Source of the DNA: Guyparkeria sp. | Lineage (GTDB): Bacteria; Pseudomonadota; Gammaproteobacteria; Halothiobacillales; Halothiobacillaceae | Direction: 5' to 3' | Assembly: GCA_024636755.1 (NCBI GenBank) | Contig: JAGXGL010000092.1 | Location: 1 to 51,398 of the forward strand | DNA length: 51,398 bases | In this document: positions 36,019-51,332 of the stretch, piece after piece | How positions within the stretch are numbered: position 1 is the first letter of the stretch | Layout of the letters: every line of letters begins with the position of its first letter | Position numbers and translations under genes: made by a program | Notes under the pieces: generated by a model | Databases searched by the model: none | The model's input: only the letters and a program-made list of their open reading frames with translations | Told to the model about the DNA's origin: nothing

Positions 36019-41919
<5,901 letters not shown>

Positions 41920-42044
41920 CAGGGCGAGGAAGTGCACCGTTGGGTAGTTGGGCCGGTTTTTGGTGCGTATGCCTTGGCTCGGGTCATCCCTCCCCAGGCA
42001 GTTGCCCATTGTTCAGGAGGCACGGCCAATGTTGAATCATGCTA

Positions 42045-42828: not shown

Positions 42829-44958
42829 ATGTTGTCCAGACTCAAGAGCCGCTCGGTATTGCTGACCGGACCGGATGCCGAGAGCAAGCGTGAGGCAGTA
42901 CGCGCGTATTTCCATCGCACGATGGACACCTACGAGAAGCTGTTCGAGGTGCTTACCGATGACCAGGCTTTCTACGAGCGGCCCGAGCCCCTGCGTCACC
43001 CGCTGATCTTCTATTTCGGCCATCCGGCCACCTTCTACATCAACAAGTTGGTTACGGCGAAGGCGACCACGCGCATCGATCCCCAGCTCGAAGGCATGTT
43101 CGCCATCGGCGTCGACGAGATGAGTTGGGATGACCTCAACGATGCGCACTACGACTGGCCGTCGGTCGACCGGGTGCGCGAGTATCGTCGCAAGGTGCGT
43201 GAGCGCGTCGATCAGTTGATCTCCGAGCTCGACTGGACGCCGCCGGTGCGCTGGGACGATCCCCCCGTCTGGTCGATCTTCATGGGCATCGAGCACGAGC
43301 GCATTCACCTGGAGACCTCGTCGGTGTTGATTCGCCAGCTCGATCTCACGTGGGTACGGCCGCACGACGACTGGCCGGTTTGCGATACCGCGGCCGCGGC
43401 GCCTGCTGCCGCGCCTGCCAACGAGTTGCTCGAGGTGGCCGGCGGCACGGTGGTGCAGGGCAAGCCGCATGACGCGCCCCTGTACGGCTGGGACAACGAA
43501 TACGGGCGGCTGGAGACGCGGGTGAAATCGTTTCAGGCCAGCCGCATGCAGGTTTCCAACGCCGAATTCCTCGCCTTCGTCGAGGCCGGCGGTTACGAGA
43601 CGCCCGAATGGTGGACCGAGGAGGGGCGGCGCTGGCTCGAATTTCGCGCAGCCCGTCACCCGAACTTCTGGGTGCCGCGCGGGGAGGGCTTTGCCTACCG
43701 GGCCATGACCCACGAGATCGAGATGCCGTGGGACTGGCCGGTGGACGTCAACTACCTCGAGGCCAAGGCGTTCTGCAACTGGCTGTCCGAGACCACGGGC
43801 CGGTCCATCCGTCTGCCCACCGAGCCCGAGTACGAGCGCCTGCGCCAGGTGTCCGGTGTGCCGGACGAGCCGGAGTGGGGTGAACGGGCGCCGGGCAACA
43901 TCAATCTCGAGTACTGGGCCTCGGCCTGCCCGGTCGACCGCTTCGCCCAGGGCGACTTCTTCGATGTGATCGGCAACGTCTGGCAATGGACCGAGACGCC
44001 GATCGATGCCTTCGAGGGCTTCGAGCCGCACCCGATCTACGACGATTTCTCGGTGCCGACCTTCGACAACCAGCACAACCTGATCAAGGGCGGCTCCTGG
44101 ATATCGACCGGCAACGAGGCGACGCGCGACGCCCGCTACGCCTTCCGCCGGCACTTCTTCCAGCACGCCGGTTTCCGCTACGTCGAGGGTGAACCGGTAC
44201 GCCCGCCGGCCAGCAGGGACGAGGGCTACTACGAGACCGACGCCCAGCTGGCGCAATACTGCGATTTCCACTTCGGCCGTTCGTACTTCGGTGTCGCCAA
44301 CTTTCCGCGCGCGTTGGCTGAGTACGCACTGCGCGAGATGGAGGGGCGCGCTCATGGGGCGGCGTTGGATATCGGCTGTGCTACCGGGCGGGCGACCTTC
44401 GAGCTCGCGCCGCATTTCGAGTCGGTCACCGGTCTGGATTTCTCGGCGCGTTTCATCCAGATCGCCCAGGCGATGCTCGACGAGGGGCAGATCGCCTACG
44501 CGCTGCCCACCGAGGGTGAACTGACCGAGGATCGTGCCGCCTCATTGGCCGGGCTCGGGCTCGAATCGCGCGACAACATCGCGTTCTGGCAGCAGGACGC
44601 CTGCAACATGAAACCGCACTTTGCCGGCTACGACCTGGTGCTGGCGGGCAACCTGATCGACCGGCTCTACGACCCGGGCAAGTTCCTCGACGACATCGCC
44701 GGGCGCATCAATCCCGGCGGCCTGCTGCTGATCGCCTCGCCCTACACCTGGCTCGAGGACTGCACGCCGCGCGATCGCTGGCTGGGTGGATTCGTCGAGG
44801 ACGGCCGTCCCGTCAGCACATTCGACACGCTGATCAAGCGCCTGGAGCCGAACTTCGAGTTGGTGGGTGAGCCGGCGGAGATCCCGTTCGTGATCCGTGA
44901 CACGGCCCGGCGCTACCAGCATACGGTCAGTCAGGTGACTGTATGGGCGCGCCGATGA
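42829..44958 (+). CDS. ovoA: ovothiol biosynthesis enzyme OvoA (5-histidylcysteine sulfoxide synthase/methyltransferase)
   Basis: A 709-residue three-domain protein. Residues ~20-175 form a DinB-like domain with the iron motif HX3HXE (His156, His160, Glu162) and an earlier candidate ligand His65. Residues ~200-455 form an FGE-sulfatase/C-type-lectin-like domain (MQVSNAEFLAFVEAGGY, RLPTEPEYERL, GNVWQWTE, IKGGSW, RYAFRRHFF). Residues ~470-709 form a SAM methyltransferase with LDIGCATGR at 513-521. OvoA joins cysteine to C5 of histidine using O2 and Fe2+, and its C-terminal domain later methylates N1 of the thiol-histidine to give ovothiol A, a redox-active antioxidant. AGAGGA precedes the ATG. 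The next gene overlaps by 4 nt. Confidence 0.94.
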   Translation: MLSRLKSRSVLLTGPDAESKREAVRAYFHRTMDTYEKLFEVLTDDQAFYERPEPLRHPLIFYFGHPATFYINKLVTAKATTRIDPQLEGMFAIGVDEMSWDDLNDAHYDWPSVDRVREYRRKVRERVDQLISELDWTPPVRWDDPPVWSIFMGIEHERIHLETSSVLIRQLDLTWVRPHDDWPVCDTAAAAPAAAPANELLEVAGGTVVQGKPHDAPLYGWDNEYGRLETRVKSFQASRMQVSNAEFLAFVEAGGYETPEWWTEEGRRWLEFRAARHPNFWVPRGEGFAYRAMTHEIEMPWDWPVDVNYLEAKAFCNWLSETTGRSIRLPTEPEYERLRQVSGVPDEPEWGERAPGNINLEYWASACPVDRFAQGDFFDVIGNVWQWTETPIDAFEGFEPHPIYDDFSVPTFDNQHNLIKGGSWISTGNEATRDARYAFRRHFFQHAGFRYVEGEPVRPPASRDEGYYETDAQLAQYCDFHFGRSYFGVANFPRALAEYALREMEGRAHGAALDIGCATGRATFELAPHFESVTGLDFSARFIQIAQAMLDEGQIAYALPTEGELTEDRAASLAGLGLESRDNIAFWQQDACNMKPHFAGYDLVLAGNLIDRLYDPGKFLDDIAGRINPGGLLLIASPYTWLEDCTPRDRWLGGFVEDGRPVSTFDTLIKRLEPNFELVGEPAEIPFVIRDTARRYQHTVSQVTVWARR

Positions 44959-46190
44959 GTGCCGACGCCCCCTCTACCGACTTCACCCGCTTGGCCCAGT
45001 ACCCCGGGTCCGGCTGCGAGAAGTACGACCGGCGCGCCGAAATCTTCGGCCGCGACGACGTGATCCCGCTGTGGGTGGCGGACATGGACTTCCCGGCGCC
45101 CGATTTCGTCACCGACGCACTCGCCGAGCGGCTCGCCGACGGCGCCTTCGGCTATGCCAAGCCGAGCGAGGGACACCTCGAGGCGATCACCGGCTGGCTG
45201 GCCGGTCAGCACGACTGGCAGGTCGGTGCCGAGACGATCGTGCCCGTGCCCGGCGTGGTGCCGGCGATGGCGATGGCCATTCGCGCCTTCACCTCGCCGG
45301 GGGCGCGCGTGATCATCCAACCGCCGGTGTACTTCCCGTTCTTCCAGGTGGTGCGCGACCAGGGGCGCGAACGGGTCGAGAACCCGCTGGTCGAGCAGGT
45401 ATCGCCGGATGGTATCCGCGGCTACGGCATGGATTTCGAGGCGCTGGAGGCGCAGGCCCGTGAGGCTGAGATGCTGCTGCTCTGCAATCCGCACAACCCG
45501 GGTGGGCGTGCCTGGAACGAAGCGGAGCTTGGCGAGGTGGCCGCTATCTGCTCGCGCCACGACGTGATGGTGATCAGCGACGAGATCCACATGGACCTGA
45601 CCTACCCGGGCATCCGGCACACCCCCTTTGCTCGGGTGGCAGACTCGGCCGGTTGTCGCTGGTTTACGGTCACCGCGCCGGGCAAGACCTTCAATACCGC
45701 CGGGATCGGCGGGGGTTATGCCGTGATCCCCGACGCCGAGATCCGCAAGCGTTTCGATCGCGAGCGTCGCGGCATGCATCTGGGCGAGGGCTCGGTATTC
45801 GGCCTGACCGCGCTCAAGGCTGCCTACACCCATGGGGCGAAGTGGCCGGCCGAGTTGATGGCGCATGTCGCGAGCAACCGGGATCGGGTGATCGAGGCGG
45901 TGGCCGATCTGCCGATCGAGCCGATGTGGCCCGAGGCGACCTACCTGCTGTGGCTGGACTGCCGGGGAATGGGGTTGTCCGACGCGGCGACCGATCCCGG
46001 CGACACGGCGTTGCAGCGATTTTTCATCGACGAGGCGGGATTGGGCCTGAGCCAGGGCATTATTTTCGGTGAGCCGGGGCGCGGCTACATGCGCATCAAT
46101 CTAGCCGCGCCGACGCGCATTATCGATCGCGCCATGGCACAACTGCGCGCGGCTTGGGGAAAGCGAGTCGCGGGGCGGGGTCCCGCCTAA
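44955..46190 (+). CDS. MalY/PatB-type PLP-dependent C-S lyase (OvoB-like)
   Basis: A 411-residue fold-type I PLP enzyme. It has IPLWVADMDFPAPDFV near the N-terminus, the NPHNPGGRAW motif, ISDEIHMDL and the Schiff-base Lys244 in TAPGKTFNTAGIGG. This is the MalY/PatB cystathionine beta-lyase group. Its start codon lies in the ovoA stop (ATGA), so the two are translationally coupled. Ovothiol synthesis needs a PLP lyase (OvoB) to cleave the C-S bond of the sulfoxide made by OvoA, so this gene very probably supplies that step. The specific assignment is from context; the sequence alone says only C-S lyase. Confidence 0.88.
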   Translation: MSADAPSTDFTRLAQYPGSGCEKYDRRAEIFGRDDVIPLWVADMDFPAPDFVTDALAERLADGAFGYAKPSEGHLEAITGWLAGQHDWQVGAETIVPVPGVVPAMAMAIRAFTSPGARVIIQPPVYFPFFQVVRDQGRERVENPLVEQVSPDGIRGYGMDFEALEAQAREAEMLLLCNPHNPGGRAWNEAELGEVAAICSRHDVMVISDEIHMDLTYPGIRHTPFARVADSAGCRWFTVTAPGKTFNTAGIGGGYAVIPDAEIRKRFDRERRGMHLGEGSVFGLTALKAAYTHGAKWPAELMAHVASNRDRVIEAVADLPIEPMWPEATYLLWLDCRGMGLSDAATDPGDTALQRFFIDEAGLGLSQGIIFGEPGRGYMRINLAAPTRIIDRAMAQLRAAWGKRVAGRGPA

Positions 46191-46647: not shown

Positions 46648-47772
46648 GTGTCTATACTTGACCCCTTTGCCCAGAGTGAATTGTCCATGTGGCCCGAATA
46701 TTTCCTGTTTCTTCTCAAGACGCTGACATTGGTCGTTGCCGTGGTCTTTGTCGTGGCGGCGCTGGTTTCGGTCGTGGCGCAGGCGCGCAACTCGCAGGCC
46801 GGTGAGAGTCGGCTCAAGCCGCTGAAGATCCGTCGTCTCAACGACGAGATCGAGTCACGCAGCAAGCAGTTGCGCGAGGCGCTGGAAAAGCCCGACGCTG
46901 GGTGGAAGGCCAAGTGGGCCGAGCTGCGCCAGCGGTTGCCCGGTGGCAAGCAAAAGGACGATCACAAGGCGCCCGCCGTTACCGAGGACAAGCCGGCGGC
47001 CACCGAGGAACGCAATGAGGAGGGCGAGACGGGAGACTCGGCGACCCGAACCTTCGTGCTGCGTTTCCACGGCGACATCCGCGCCTCGGCGGTCGAGGCC
47101 CTGCGCGAGGAGGTCAGCGCCGTGTTGCAGGCAGCCGAGCCGGGTCGTGATCGCGTGCTGCTGGTGCTGGACAGCCCCGGTGGCGTGGTGCCGGGATACG
47201 GTCTGGCCGCCGCCCAGCTGGCGCGACTGCGCAAAGCGGAAATCGAGTTGATCGCGGTGGTCGATCGCGTCGCGGCCAGCGGGGGCTACATGATGGCGGC
47301 CGTGGCCAATCGCATCGTCGCCGCGCCGTTCGCCATTGTCGGTTCGATCGGTGTGGTGGCTCAGATGCCCAACATCCATCGCCTGCTCAAGCGCAACGAC
47401 ATCGATGTCGAGCTGCATACCGCCGGGCAGCACAAGCGCACCCTGACCTTGCTGGGCGAGAACACCGAGGCCGGGCGGGAGAAATTCCGCGAGGAGCTCG
47501 AGCAGACACACGTGCTGTTCAAGCAATTCCTCAATCGCTATCGCCCGCAACTGGACCTGGAGAAACTCGCCACCGGTGAGCACTGGTACGGTGAGGATGC
47601 GCTGGAGCTGGGTCTGATCGACGACATCGGCACCAGCGACGACTGGATCCTCGAGGCCGCGAATCAGGGCGACGCCTTCGAGATCACCCAGCCGATGAAA
47701 AAGCGTGGCCTGCTCGGTCGCCTGAGCGCCTCGGCCCAGTCATTGCTGAGCGAATGGCGACACCCGCTCTGA
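46648..47772 (+). CDS. sohB: inner-membrane protease SohB (S49 family)
   Basis: A 374-residue protein. One N-terminal membrane helix (about residues 18-43) is followed by a charged linker and the SohB/SppA protease domain. That domain includes VLLVLDSPGGVVPGYGLAAAQLARL, the nucleophile region RVAASGGYMMA (Ser211) and FAIVGSIGVVAQMPN, with a catalytic Lys expected in the following region (GQHKRTLTLLGENTEAGREKF). It degrades periplasmic or membrane peptides. The GTG start has GGGGGAG 7 nt upstream; an ATG 13 codons later, matching the start of E. coli SohB better, is an alternative, and a TATACT between them could be a -10. Confidence 0.9.
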   Translation: MSILDPFAQSELSMWPEYFLFLLKTLTLVVAVVFVVAALVSVVAQARNSQAGESRLKPLKIRRLNDEIESRSKQLREALEKPDAGWKAKWAELRQRLPGGKQKDDHKAPAVTEDKPAATEERNEEGETGDSATRTFVLRFHGDIRASAVEALREEVSAVLQAAEPGRDRVLLVLDSPGGVVPGYGLAAAQLARLRKAEIELIAVVDRVAASGGYMMAAVANRIVAAPFAIVGSIGVVAQMPNIHRLLKRNDIDVELHTAGQHKRTLTLLGENTEAGREKFREELEQTHVLFKQFLNRYRPQLDLEKLATGEHWYGEDALELGLIDDIGTSDDWILEAANQGDAFEITQPMKKRGLLGRLSASAQSLLSEWRHPL

Positions 47773-47813: not shown

Positions 47814-50072
47814 TTACTTGCCAGATCCTTGTCGATTGGCTTGGAACTGGGCTAGGATCTGGATATAGGTTTCGCTCACGTCACGGGCGAAGTGGTCGAT
47901 GGCGTGACGCCGTGCGGTGCTGACGGCCTGGTCGGCCATGGTCGCGCGCAAGGTATCGTCTTCGATCAGTCGTTGGGCGGCCGTGGTCCAGCGGTCGATG
48001 TCCTCGGCGGTCTTGAAGCCGTTGCTCTCGTGGTTGACCACGTCGTCGATGCCGCTCGATCGCACGGCGACCACCGGCAGGCCTGCCGCCATCGCCTCGA
48101 GAATGACCATCCCCTGGGTTTCCGACTTGGAGGCGAACACGAACGCGTCCCCCAGTTGGTAATAGTGCGCCATCTCGTCGGGTGAAACCGCCCCGACCAG
48201 CGTGATCACCTCGGCCAGATCGAGTGCGTCGATGCGTTCCTGCAGGCGCTCGCGTTCGTCACCATCACCGATGATCAGGCAGCGAAATGGCTGGGCGCTG
48301 CGGCAGCGCAACTCGTCCATCGCCGCGATCAGAAAGTCGATGTTCTTCTCGCGGGAAAGCCTTGAAACACTCACCAGCACGCGCTCGTCCGGCCCAATGC
48401 CGTGTTTGAGGCGTAGGGCTTCGACGGCTGCGGGTTCGTCGGTTTGGAATCGGTCGAAGTCGATTCCGGTCGGGTGCACGTAGATGGGAGCGGTGACCCC
48501 GATCACCCGCAGGTATTCCTCGGCCGACTCGGTCGGCACGATCACCCCGTCGCAGCGATTAGCGAACCGCCGGATGGCGGTGTGTGCGATCAGGTTGCGG
48601 AACAGCGGGCCCGGCAGCGGCACGAAGTGCGAGTAGTGTTCCAGGCGGGTGTGATAGGTAAATACCGTCGGCACCTTCAGCCGTCGAGCATGCCATTGCG
48701 CCGCCCAGCCAAGCCAGAATGGGTGGTGGATGTGGATCAGGTCGGGTGAAAAGTCTTTCAGTCCCCGGCGAATGCGCGGCGAGAGCGGATTGGCCAGCCG
48801 GAACTCGCCCTTATGCCCCATGCTCAGCAGCGAGGGGACGCGGACCACGTCGGTCTCCCGGTCATCCTGGCGGGCGTAGCTGGGCGCGATGATCCGCACG
48901 CGATGACTCAACTGCGCCAATCCCCGGTGCAGTCGATCGATGGAGATGGGCACCCCACCGATGAACGGCAGATAGTTGTTGGTCACCATGGCGATGGTCA
49001 GCGGTCGGCCGGTCCACGGCGAGGTGTCCAGGTCGTAGTTCCGGTAGTAGTCGCGCTCGACGAAGATCGTGCTGTAGAGCTTGATTGCCAGCAGGATCAG
49101 CAGGCCGAGCACCAGCAGGAAATTGAGGTGGCCGACGTAGAAGAGCGAGTGGATGAAGAACCATAGGCTCTCGAGCGTCTTGAACACCTGGTGCTGGCCG
49201 ATATCGAGCCGCTCGACCGTGATCGTCACCTCGCCATCGGCGCTCTTCACGTCGACGTAGTGATAGAAGCTGGTCTCGTTGTTGAGTACCAGTCCGCCGG
49301 CCCCGCCGGTGACCACGTAGCGGACCCCGTCGCGTTGCTGTTCATCGAACAGGTGCAGGTTGCTGGAAAACACCGCGTCGACGTCATGCGCGCGGAACAG
49401 CGCGTGAAGCCGGTCGCGGAAGGTCTCGTCGGTCAGGTACTGATCGTCGGAATCGAGCGGGCTTTTCTCTGTAGTGCGGAACATCGGGTGGCCGATGAAC
49501 ACGAAGCGATACGTGGCTGACGGATCGCGCAGCTGCTCCTTGAGCCAGTGAAGTTGGAACGGATAGGTGTCCGAGTCGGTGCTGTCGAGGAACAGGAACT
49601 GGCTGCCGCCGGCGCGAAAGCCGAAGAAGTACGGGCCGAAGTGCTCGTAGTAATTGAACGAGCCGAAGGCACCGCTCTCCTTCTCGCCCACCGTCAGCAG
49701 GTAGGGCATCTCCAGGTGCGAGAGCGTGCGGTACAGGGCGCGATACTTGTCCTCGCCGCCGCCACTGACGGCGTTGCCGGCCGAGACCACGAAGTCGAGC
49801 CCGGCGCGATTGAGCCGCGGGATCATCTTGCGCTCGAACAGGCCGACCGAGTTGTTGATATTGCCGACGACGGCGAAATGCAACTCGTCATTTGTCTGGT
49901 TATCTGCCAGGTCCTGAACACGCTCGATCTGCTCGGCGTGGACCGCGTGGTAGGTGGTCTCGAAGATCGATAGGTAGACCCGGTAGCCGACCAGCAGGAG
50001 GATGGCGGTCAGCGTCAGATAGAAGGCCAGCTTGAGACGACGCGGTGTCAATGATCGCGACAGGCGGCTCAC
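47814..50072 (-). CDS. metallophosphoesterase-like/GT4 glycosyltransferase membrane fusion
   Basis: A 752-residue fusion. A basic N-terminus and a helix (residues 14-33) lead to a ~255-residue calcineurin-like phosphoesterase domain, predicted periplasmic. A membrane segment at ~303-335 returns the chain to the cytoplasm, where residues ~357-745 form a GT4 glycosyltransferase (GGVPISIDRLHRGLA, TYHTRLEHY, PTGIDFDRF, VSRLSREKNIDFL, and the donor-site E-x7-E at Glu651/Glu659). The phosphoesterase motifs are degenerate: Asn71 and Asn100 where GD is expected, GEK at 129-131 for GNH, SNLH at 237-240 for GHxH, with only His195 and His240 kept. The GT part resembles diacylglycerol/phosphatidylinositol glycosyltransferases. 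The GTG start overlaps the stop of the upstream flippase-like gene. Confidence 0.85.
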   Translation of the reverse strand: MSRLSRSLTPRRLKLAFYLTLTAILLLVGYRVYLSIFETTYHAVHAEQIERVQDLADNQTNDELHFAVVGNINNSVGLFERKMIPRLNRAGLDFVVSAGNAVSGGGEDKYRALYRTLSHLEMPYLLTVGEKESGAFGSFNYYEHFGPYFFGFRAGGSQFLFLDSTDSDTYPFQLHWLKEQLRDPSATYRFVFIGHPMFRTTEKSPLDSDDQYLTDETFRDRLHALFRAHDVDAVFSSNLHLFDEQQRDGVRYVVTGGAGGLVLNNETSFYHYVDVKSADGEVTITVERLDIGQHQVFKTLESLWFFIHSLFYVGHLNFLLVLGLLILLAIKLYSTIFVERDYYRNYDLDTSPWTGRPLTIAMVTNNYLPFIGGVPISIDRLHRGLAQLSHRVRIIAPSYARQDDRETDVVRVPSLLSMGHKGEFRLANPLSPRIRRGLKDFSPDLIHIHHPFWLGWAAQWHARRLKVPTVFTYHTRLEHYSHFVPLPGPLFRNLIAHTAIRRFANRCDGVIVPTESAEEYLRVIGVTAPIYVHPTGIDFDRFQTDEPAAVEALRLKHGIGPDERVLVSVSRLSREKNIDFLIAAMDELRCRSAQPFRCLIIGDGDERERLQERIDALDLAEVITLVGAVSPDEMAHYYQLGDAFVFASKSETQGMVILEAMAAGLPVVAVRSSGIDDVVNHESNGFKTAEDIDRWTTAAQRLIEDDTLRATMADQAVSTARRHAIDHFARDVSETYIQILAQFQANRQGSGK

Positions 50073-51145
50073 GCGGTTCCTCGCCGGCTGGCCGTGATTT
50101 CTCGCTGGGTGACAATCAGCCCGATCAGCATGCCCAGATAGATCGTCAGCGCTCGCCAGGCCACGGTCACCAGCACCAGGTGCGAGGCGGTGACCACGTC
50201 ACGGAAGAAATAGGCGAACACGCCCTCGGCAATGCCTGCGGCACCCGGCGTGGGCGAGAAATACATCACGAAGGTGGTCATCACCATGCGACCGATGACC
50301 AGCCAGTAGTCGAACCCGTAACCCAGGGACCAGAAGAGCAGGGCGGGGAACGAGAACAGGGCCAGCAGAAAGATCGCCGTGAAGACGAACGAGGCGGCGA
50401 TGTCGAGCCGGCTTCCCTGGAAATAACGCACGAATCCGTGAGCAAATCGCTGTAATTCGCGCACCAACCGATGGCGCCAGCGGTGATGTCGTTGCGGGCT
50501 GATCATGTGCAGGCCTCGCAGCGCCTTGAGCGCGCTCAGCATCGGGCGCAACAGCCAGTTGCTGCGCATGACCAGGACCATGAAAAAAATCAGGTAAAGC
50601 GCCACTGATACGCTCAATGTGATTACCAGCGAGTCGCTCTGTGCCGCGCCTTCCGCTCCCGGGAGTGTCACCAGCAGGATCGGCGTGGCGCCGAAGATGA
50701 ACAGCACCGCGAGGGCGGTGCGAATGGTGGTGGCTGTCAGCCCGGTGCCCACCGGCACGCCGCGCCGGCGCATGAACCAGACCTGGGCCACCCCGCCGCC
50801 GGTGGCCAGCGGCGTGATGTTCGAGACGAAGATGTTGAGAAACACCAGCCGCGCCATGGCCGGCAACGGGATGGAGTGGCCCAGCGCGCGCAGGGTGAAC
50901 CACAGGCGCAGGCCGTCCGCGGCAAAGTAGACCAGCAATAACGCCAGGCTAGCCAGCACCAGTTGCCAGCCGAGCAGGCGTGCATCCCAGTGAATCTCGT
51001 GACCGGCGACCTGCAAGTAGACCGCCCAGATGCCGGCGGCGCTGAGCCCGATGAACAGTACAGCGAACCACAGCAGTCGGCGGCCACGAAAGGCCGGCTC
51101 GTCCTGGATCTCGAAGCGTTCGGACTGGCGGTGGGGGTCGGTCAT
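50069..51145 (-). CDS. lysylphosphatidylglycerol synthase TM/flippase-like membrane protein
   Basis: A 358-residue protein with about eight helices of the LPG_synthase_TM (UPF0104/AglD-like) family. It has the conserved LVFLNIFVSNITPLATGGGVAQVWFM in the first half and VMYFSPTPGAAGIAEGVFAYFF in the second. Relatives include the flippase half of MprF and proteins linked to glycolipid or polyprenyl-sugar handling. It is the first gene of a two-gene operon: its stop overlaps the GTG start of the phosphoesterase-GT4 gene. A joint role in making and moving a glycolipid is an inference from this coupling. Confidence 0.85.
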   Translation of the reverse strand: MTDPHRQSERFEIQDEPAFRGRRLLWFAVLFIGLSAAGIWAVYLQVAGHEIHWDARLLGWQLVLASLALLLVYFAADGLRLWFTLRALGHSIPLPAMARLVFLNIFVSNITPLATGGGVAQVWFMRRRGVPVGTGLTATTIRTALAVLFIFGATPILLVTLPGAEGAAQSDSLVITLSVSVALYLIFFMVLVMRSNWLLRPMLSALKALRGLHMISPQRHHRWRHRLVRELQRFAHGFVRYFQGSRLDIAASFVFTAIFLLALFSFPALLFWSLGYGFDYWLVIGRMVMTTFVMYFSPTPGAAGIAEGVFAYFFRDVVTASHLVLVTVAWRALTIYLGMLIGLIVTQREITASRRGTA

Positions 51146-51258: not shown

Positions 51259-51332
51259 TGGAGGCTGGACCCGGAGTCGAACCGGGGTGAACGGATTTGC
51301 AATCCGGTGCATAGCCACTCTGCCATCCAGCC
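51259..51332 (-). tRNA. tRNA-Cys (GCA)
   Basis: A 74-nt tRNA on the minus strand. The acceptor is GGCTGGA/TCCAGCC, the anticodon loop TTGCAAA gives GCA, the discriminator is U as in all tRNA-Cys, and CCA is encoded. Confidence 0.95.

Follow-up and report, generated by a model that had tools for sequence, protein, structure and literature searches.

We describe a two-gene module on a 51,398-nucleotide contig of Guyparkeria sp. (GenBank assembly GCA_024636755.1, contig JAGXGL010000092.1; the whole stretch is called the window), in which a flippase-like membrane protein is encoded together with a 752-amino-acid (aa) fusion that runs from a membrane helix through a domain of the purple-acid-phosphatase fold and a second membrane helix to a GT4 glycosyltransferase. 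The architecture is real, is conserved across many genera and is, as far as our searches go, undescribed. No account of it was recognised in the open-access literature searched, in agreement with what a sequence-only reading of this DNA had supposed, and PMC12419801, in its available part, concerns other genes; on glucosyl-phosphatidylglycerol in halophiles, only genome, physiology and biotechnology papers were among the matches listed. To judge by its motifs, the N-terminal domain of the fusion (N-domain) is a conserved pseudo-enzyme across the relatives examined. The module occurs in many genera and its membrane partner may belong to a second family or be absent, two points that go beyond the sequence-only reading.

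Both open reading frames were found on the minus strand where they had been placed. The first gene (50069..51145, ATG start) encodes a 358-aa protein that exceeds the cut-offs of LPG_synthase_TM in Pfam (PF03706; 106.8 bits against 33.4) and of TIGR00374 in NCBIfam (89.1 bits against 43.2). The fusion gene (47814..50072, GTG start), delimited from the list of open reading frames, Pfam and an AlphaFold2 model, overlaps it by 4 bp (GTGA, 50069..50072), with the GTG start lying over the TGA stop. Consistent with the proposed coupling of the two genes, an in-frame start allowing this 4-bp overlap is present in 62 of 76 related loci, a count for which starts were picked for their nearness to such an overlap. 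Flippase and fusion distances are concordant in 34 loci (Mantel r 0.93, 0/2000 permutations). The predicted order of phosphoesterase, membrane segment and GT4 is likewise borne out by relatives: a single frame encodes the two halves at 79 of 80 genome loci (the 80th is cut by its contig) and at all 11 other loci. Nor was a stand-alone N-domain, which would have spoken against a genuine fusion, found among frames from even samples of the class and phylum and from the family labelled f171, in which matches at E ≤ 1e-10 span 744–880 aa, bar one 145-aa piece at a contig end.

No Pfam match to Metallophos was obtained at E ≤ 1 in the N-domain of the window protein (residues 64–288, 49209..49883). 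By contrast, the family profile matched purple acid phosphatases (E 2e-6) and GpdQ (E 3e-5) in the PDB, and the fusion of one relative (genome G388) exceeds the Pfam Metallophos cut-off (22.1 against 21.5 bits). The fusion of G770 stands, with its neighbours, among the Metallophos-passing proteins listed, and those of the window genome, G009 and G548 are absent from the same list. An AlphaFold2 model of the domain (predicted local distance difference test (pLDDT) 81, predicted template modelling score (pTM) 0.82) has purple acid phosphatases as its top PDB folds (Foldseek E 5.8e-13, template modelling score 0.65/0.57, 17% identity), and GpdQ and Rv0805 share the fold and are matched by structure. 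Because of the PDB profile matches, the G388 Metallophos score and the fold of the model, we place the N-domain in the calcineurin-like superfamily, with a predicted purple-acid-phosphatase fold. Among eukaryotic proteins of this fold class, GAP50 of Plasmodium (3tgh) has to our knowledge no glycosyltransferase part, and its likeness to the N-domain rests on the fold, not on the GAP50 metal site. It offers a precedent for such a fold as a membrane anchor, a role described in the available part of PMC8949495.

The metal site of this domain has been lost throughout the family, as the sequence-only reading had proposed for the window protein. We aligned 91 fusions, namely that of the window, 79 of the 80 genome loci and 11 others (three plasmids and eight genome stretches); the set holds two genomes twice (L040/L067 and L041/L070, identical), as does the 99-locus set used below. 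Of what we take to be the canonical dinuclear ligand set, motifs II–V were placed by PDB profile alignments, in which GpdQ served for II and III, and the position of motif I was taken from spacing. None of the seven expected metal-ligand positions is kept in 74 of the 91 fusions and one in 17, and never two, unlike in purple acid phosphatases, GpdQ and Rv0805; no fusion has an intact dinuclear site. In the window protein the expected substitutions (Asn71, Asn100, GEK and SNLH) are all present. His195 is probably not a retained ligand, because the ligand histidine of the PDB alignments (presumably the histidine that serves as such) falls on Gly194.

What replaces the ligands is itself conserved. 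Asn71 is found in 88 of 91 fusions, and Asn74, Ser75, Ser97-Ala98-Gly99-Asn100, Glu132 and Asp163 are identical in all of them, so that loops I and II are held as Asn/Ser-Ala-Gly-Asn where Asp is expected. The mean weighted majority frequency is 0.93 in each of loops I and II, against 0.72 in loop III, 0.64 in loop IV, 0.61 in loop V and 0.63 in the N-domain outside loops I–III. Part of the former active-site cleft is therefore still under selection, to judge by the conservation of loops I and II. Since the fold appears to be kept and the metal site is lost, the N-domain should not hydrolyse a substrate.

The C-terminal part (residues 355–740, 47853..49010) is a GT-B-fold GT4 domain by Pfam, NCBIfam and PDB matches, with GT4 Pfam families covering residues 371–716. 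His447, His449, His450, His474, Glu478, Arg571, Lys576, Glu651 and Glu659 are identical in 91/91 fusions. The domain has the GT-B domains, EX7E and Arg/Lys that we take to be the motif of retaining GT4 glycosyltransferases, and it looks active on these grounds. In support of the claimed resemblance to glycolipid synthases, its two best NCBIfam profiles are lipid-glycosylating and span the whole domain: alpha-monoglucosyl-diacylglycerol synthase (NF049988) at 187.9 bits against a cut-off of 400, and N-acetylglucosaminyl (GlcNAc)-phosphatidylglycerol synthase (GlcN_PG_synth, GpgS, NF053787) at 151.6 bits against 480, followed by BshA at 106.7 bits. The former, Mgs-type model has 398 positions and no counterpart of the N-domain. 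The acceptor is best guessed from these profiles as diacylglycerol or phosphatidylglycerol.

To survey the partner genes, we counted genes anywhere in each of 99 loci, comprising the 91-fusion set minus the window, eight f171 stretches and the contig-cut locus L051, which carries an LPG_synthase_TM gene and is absent from the 91 fusions. An LPG_synthase_TM gene occurs in 77 loci, a VTT/DedA-type gene in 10, neither in 12 and both in 0, in searches by similarity to few queries that could miss remote members. The alternative partner belongs to a different Pfam family, scoring 83.8–87.1 bits for VTT_dom (PF09335) in 4 of 4 proteins tested by Pfam; the remaining VTT partners were assigned by similarity to two of these, and the UptA profile reached 21–23 bits against 250 in two of the four. 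VTT gene and fusion are arranged tail-to-tail in the L036/L038 clade and divergently in L141/L142, and L141 (G858) has two tandem VTT and fusion cassettes within 18 kb. On a tree of 52 fusions, which includes 8 of 11 VTT copies and leaves out near-duplicates, the VTT label requires two changes, one of them forced by starred branches. Two acquisitions of the VTT link are favoured by the tree, not proven, because holding together the seven f171 VTT rows is rejected (approximately unbiased (AU) test, p 0.0005; a set defined with the tree already in view), although holding together all eight is not (AU p 0.06). That the two families exclude each other in these loci is the main new point of this work, and it gives the strongest hint that a lipid translocator acts together with the fusion. 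According to the available part of PMC10127716, undecaprenyl-phosphate flippases belong to the VTT proteins, as do putative phospholipid flippases or scramblases, and the swap therefore suggests that the product of the fusion needs moving across the membrane.

The 12 loci with neither gene include eight of Pseudomonas, one of Halopseudomonas and one of Marinobacter sp. HL-58 (L088:4300-5200), in which the flippase gene is mostly deleted, leaving a short remnant, and the fusion is retained; a dedicated neighbour is therefore not obligatory. A Pfam search for LPG_synthase_TM, covering 12 partner-less or VTT genomes and five positives, found other members of the family (E ≤ 0.001) in 8 of the 12, six of them above the cut-off. 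Across the neighbourhoods, the flippase cluster spans 14 of about 30 genus labels, and no cluster besides the pair exceeds six; the next are an antisense open reading frame over the flippase (six genus labels), a PAS-type cluster (four), a lipocalin-like cluster (four) and VTT (four genomes). A third conserved gene was considered and rejected, the largest extra cluster being that antisense frame.

We lean cautiously towards a membrane-anchored glycolipid synthase encoded with a translocator and bearing, in the periplasm, a pseudo-phosphatase whose role would be binding and not cleavage. In the full-length AlphaFold2 model, helices at residues 10–37 (49962..50045) and 315–337 flank the N-domain, the latter preceded by a juxtamembrane helix at 295–312 (together 49062..49190), and the GT4 part comes after. 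This agrees with the proposed topology, in which the N-domain is probably periplasmic and the GT4 enzyme cytoplasmic; the model has pLDDT 85.8 and pTM 0.60, and the relative placement of its domains is therefore uncertain. At the inner leaflet the GT4 domain would glycosylate a lipid, most probably diacylglycerol or phosphatidylglycerol, with a uridine diphosphate (UDP)-sugar as the probable donor. The resulting glycolipid would be carried to the outer leaflet by the LPG_synthase_TM protein or, in other lineages, by one of the VTT/DedA type. The likeliest role of loops I and II of the N-domain would be to hold a ligand or partner, whether a lipid head group, some other phosphorylated molecule or the translocator itself, and this binding would couple synthesis to events across the membrane. 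That the pseudo-domain might exert control, as first suggested, is a reasonable idea. More tentatively, and as something possible rather than probable, the module might represent a new class of membrane glycolipid synthase, in which the dead periplasmic domain reads the outer leaflet or periplasm and sets GT4 activity through the helices, in concert with whichever of the two unrelated translocator families (LPG_synthase_TM or VTT/DedA) is available; its cue could be, for example, the head group of the flipped glycolipid or a phosphorylated ligand.

Several observations weigh against a lipid-making, ligand-binding module, besides the few queries behind the partner calls. Both lipid-glycosylating profiles fall far short of their cut-offs; seven GT4 models, for lipid and other acceptors, match 37 of 37 members at E ≤ 1e-20; and 3 of 10 other GT4 paralogues, which have no N-domain, also score best with the alpha-monoglucosyl-diacylglycerol model (125–156 bits). 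Because other models and paralogues match likewise, the resemblance does not single out lipid glycosylators. By fold, the GT4 part is matched in the PDB first by BshA and MshA, enzymes that glycosylate small molecules, and further down by PimB' and PimA. Taken over its full length, the N-domain shows no more conservation than the GT4 domain (0.67 against 0.70), and the charge bias around the helices is modest and is weak evidence on topology. On the partner side, 12% of loci, the 12 of 99 described above, have neither gene; a search elsewhere in 12 partner-less or VTT genomes, which had no positive control, did not turn up the window flippase (0/12); no LPG_synthase_TM protein was found at E ≤ 0.001 in four of these (G185, which has VTT, and G771, G775 and G777); and the tree does not reject a single grouping of all eight VTT rows.

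Of the other explanations, the simplest is that the N-domain is purely structural, a membrane anchor, folding aid or oligomerisation platform for GT4 with no ligand. No ligand is known for it, as this account would have it, but a mere anchor need not keep the invariant residues listed above in 91/91 fusions, nor loops I and II far better conserved than IV and V, and we regard this account as rather unlikely. Alternatively, the domain could be a dock for the LPG_synthase_TM flippase, with the conserved loops as the contact, an arrangement in keeping with the gene pair, its possible overlap and the agreement of flippase and fusion distances. The N-domain motifs persist, however, without an adjacent flippase gene in the Pseudomonas loci and Marinobacter L088, and also where an unrelated VTT gene stands instead, which makes such a dock improbable. 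A synthase of the GpgS type, with GlcNAc-phosphatidylglycerol as its product and a flippase to itself, would fit the second-best profile and the pairing of GT4 with LPG_synthase_TM. That pairing recalls gpgSDF of Pseudomonas aeruginosa, described in the available part of PMC12713373 as a glycosyltransferase, a deacetylase and a flippase candidate of the UPF0104/AglD2-YbhN type, and hexSDF of Clostridioides difficile, with the same three kinds of protein in the available part of PMC11898633. As in those systems, a glycosyltransferase is encoded with a flippase candidate in a membrane glycolipid setting; unlike them, the present pair has no deacetylase gene and its GT4 is fused to a pseudo-phosphatase. 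We place the module with known GT4 and flippase glycolipid modules, as a variant. Against GpgS itself, the fusion is far below the profile cut-off, the window flippase scores 24.6 bits against 320 for GpgF (NF053789), and G388 has, besides its fusion, true GpgS and GpgF genes that overlap (599.2 and 417.3 bits, respectively; L192:4581-6714). On these scores and this coexistence we rejected a GpgS identity for the fusion, and consider the GpgS-type account very improbable.

PlcP-Agt lipid renovation, finally, pairs the same two types of domain: PlcP, a separate phosphoesterase, degrades phospholipids, and PlcP-Agt makes monoglucosyldiacylglycerol (MGDG) and glucuronic acid diacylglycerol (GADG) under phosphate stress and has Pho boxes, according to the available part of PMC8528852. 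That Roseobacters also carry the module would suit a variant of this system in which phosphoesterase and glycosyltransferase are fused. Unlike a catalytic phosphoesterase, however, the N-domain is without the expected metal ligands, and it lies between two membrane helices in the model. It matched one canonical phosphoesterase of its own genome with an hhalign probability of only 2.7%, a weak test in that this protein is itself only weakly assigned and its kinship to PlcP is uncertain. Upstream of the module, no Pho-box-like site with at least 11 of 14 matches to what we take to be the consensus was present in 98 regions (11 matches occur in 1.5% of shuffles). Sites with 10 of 14 matches occur in 22% of regions against 9% of shuffles, and several Marinobacter regions share one site; we do not take this excess as a signal. 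A fused PlcP-Agt variant seems scarcely probable at all.

The module is scattered rather widely. Searches of 10 further genomes of the window's genus recovered the N-terminal half in 9, eight times within frames of 767–796 aa, and the genome in which it was not found is 64% complete. Outside the genus, 16 genomes of the family gave no match, and one weak short match was obtained among 30 genomes of the class. Even samples gave 7 positive genomes of 369 in the class, four of them of the window's genus, and 7 of 398 in the phylum, own genome included in both; in f171, 11 of 121 genomes were positive. A genome scan gave 197 relatives, of which the best 80 were analysed and the remoter 117 are outside the counts. 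These 80 belong mostly to Marinobacter, Idiomarina/Pseudidiomarina, Pseudomonas and Halothiobacillaceae, with Guyparkeria and Halothiobacillus as the closest named relatives; single hosts include Saccharospirillum, Thiomicrospira and Methylophaga, among others, and three are metagenome-assembled genomes (MAGs) assigned to Desulfobacterales, Desulfobulbaceae and Desulfobacteraceae. Many of the host genera are marine or halophilic. In the 52-fusion tree the three Desulfo-MAG rows sit among gammaproteobacterial rows, and horizontal transfer, or misbinning of the MAG contigs, is therefore likely. The module was also found in 33 plasmid records (30 of Pseudosulfitobacter and one each of Sulfitobacter, Alloyangia and Halomonas), and on the three plasmids inspected the pair is near conjugation, ion-transport or insertion-sequence genes. 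On a Pseudosulfitobacter plasmid (L035), IS3 and IS110 transposase genes flank the pair in the manner of a mobile cassette. A calcium/sodium-antiporter-like gene is present in 5 of the 99 loci (L033, L034, L094, L141 and L142), which span Roseobacters, a Desulfobulbaceae MAG and f171, and a CorA-like gene within 2 of 99; an ion-transport gene is possibly a recurrent neighbour of the pair.

In the window, a tRNA-Cys gene (51259..51332) lies upstream of the pair and an S49 peptidase gene (46648..47772), oriented towards it, lies downstream. The assembly is incomplete (1.78 Mb in 98 contigs, 79% complete). On a second contig (G000:C70:3-311, locus L002) it carries the start of a fusion at 88% identity that ends at the contig edge, which may mean that the assembly mixes strains or that the gene is present twice. 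Elsewhere in the window, positions 42829-46190 (plus strand) encode two proteins that perhaps form an ovothiol operon: one of 709 aa, by eye an OvoA-like sulfoxide synthase that ends in a methyltransferase, and after it a PatB/MalY-like aminotransferase. At positions 37900-42009 (minus strand) lies the gene of a 1369-aa protein in which we discern, by eye, PAS, GGDEF and EAL parts.

For most flippase candidates of the LPG_synthase_TM and VTT/DedA families the substrate is not known, and this makes them difficult to assay. That either family can stand beside the same synthase suggests that they do the same job here, and a single lipid product could test both. As the fusion family is present in culturable genera (Marinobacter, Idiomarina and Guyparkeria), a lipidomic test is within reach. 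If the pseudo-phosphatase does bind a ligand, lipid composition would here be controlled across a membrane by a dead phosphatase, an unusual arrangement.

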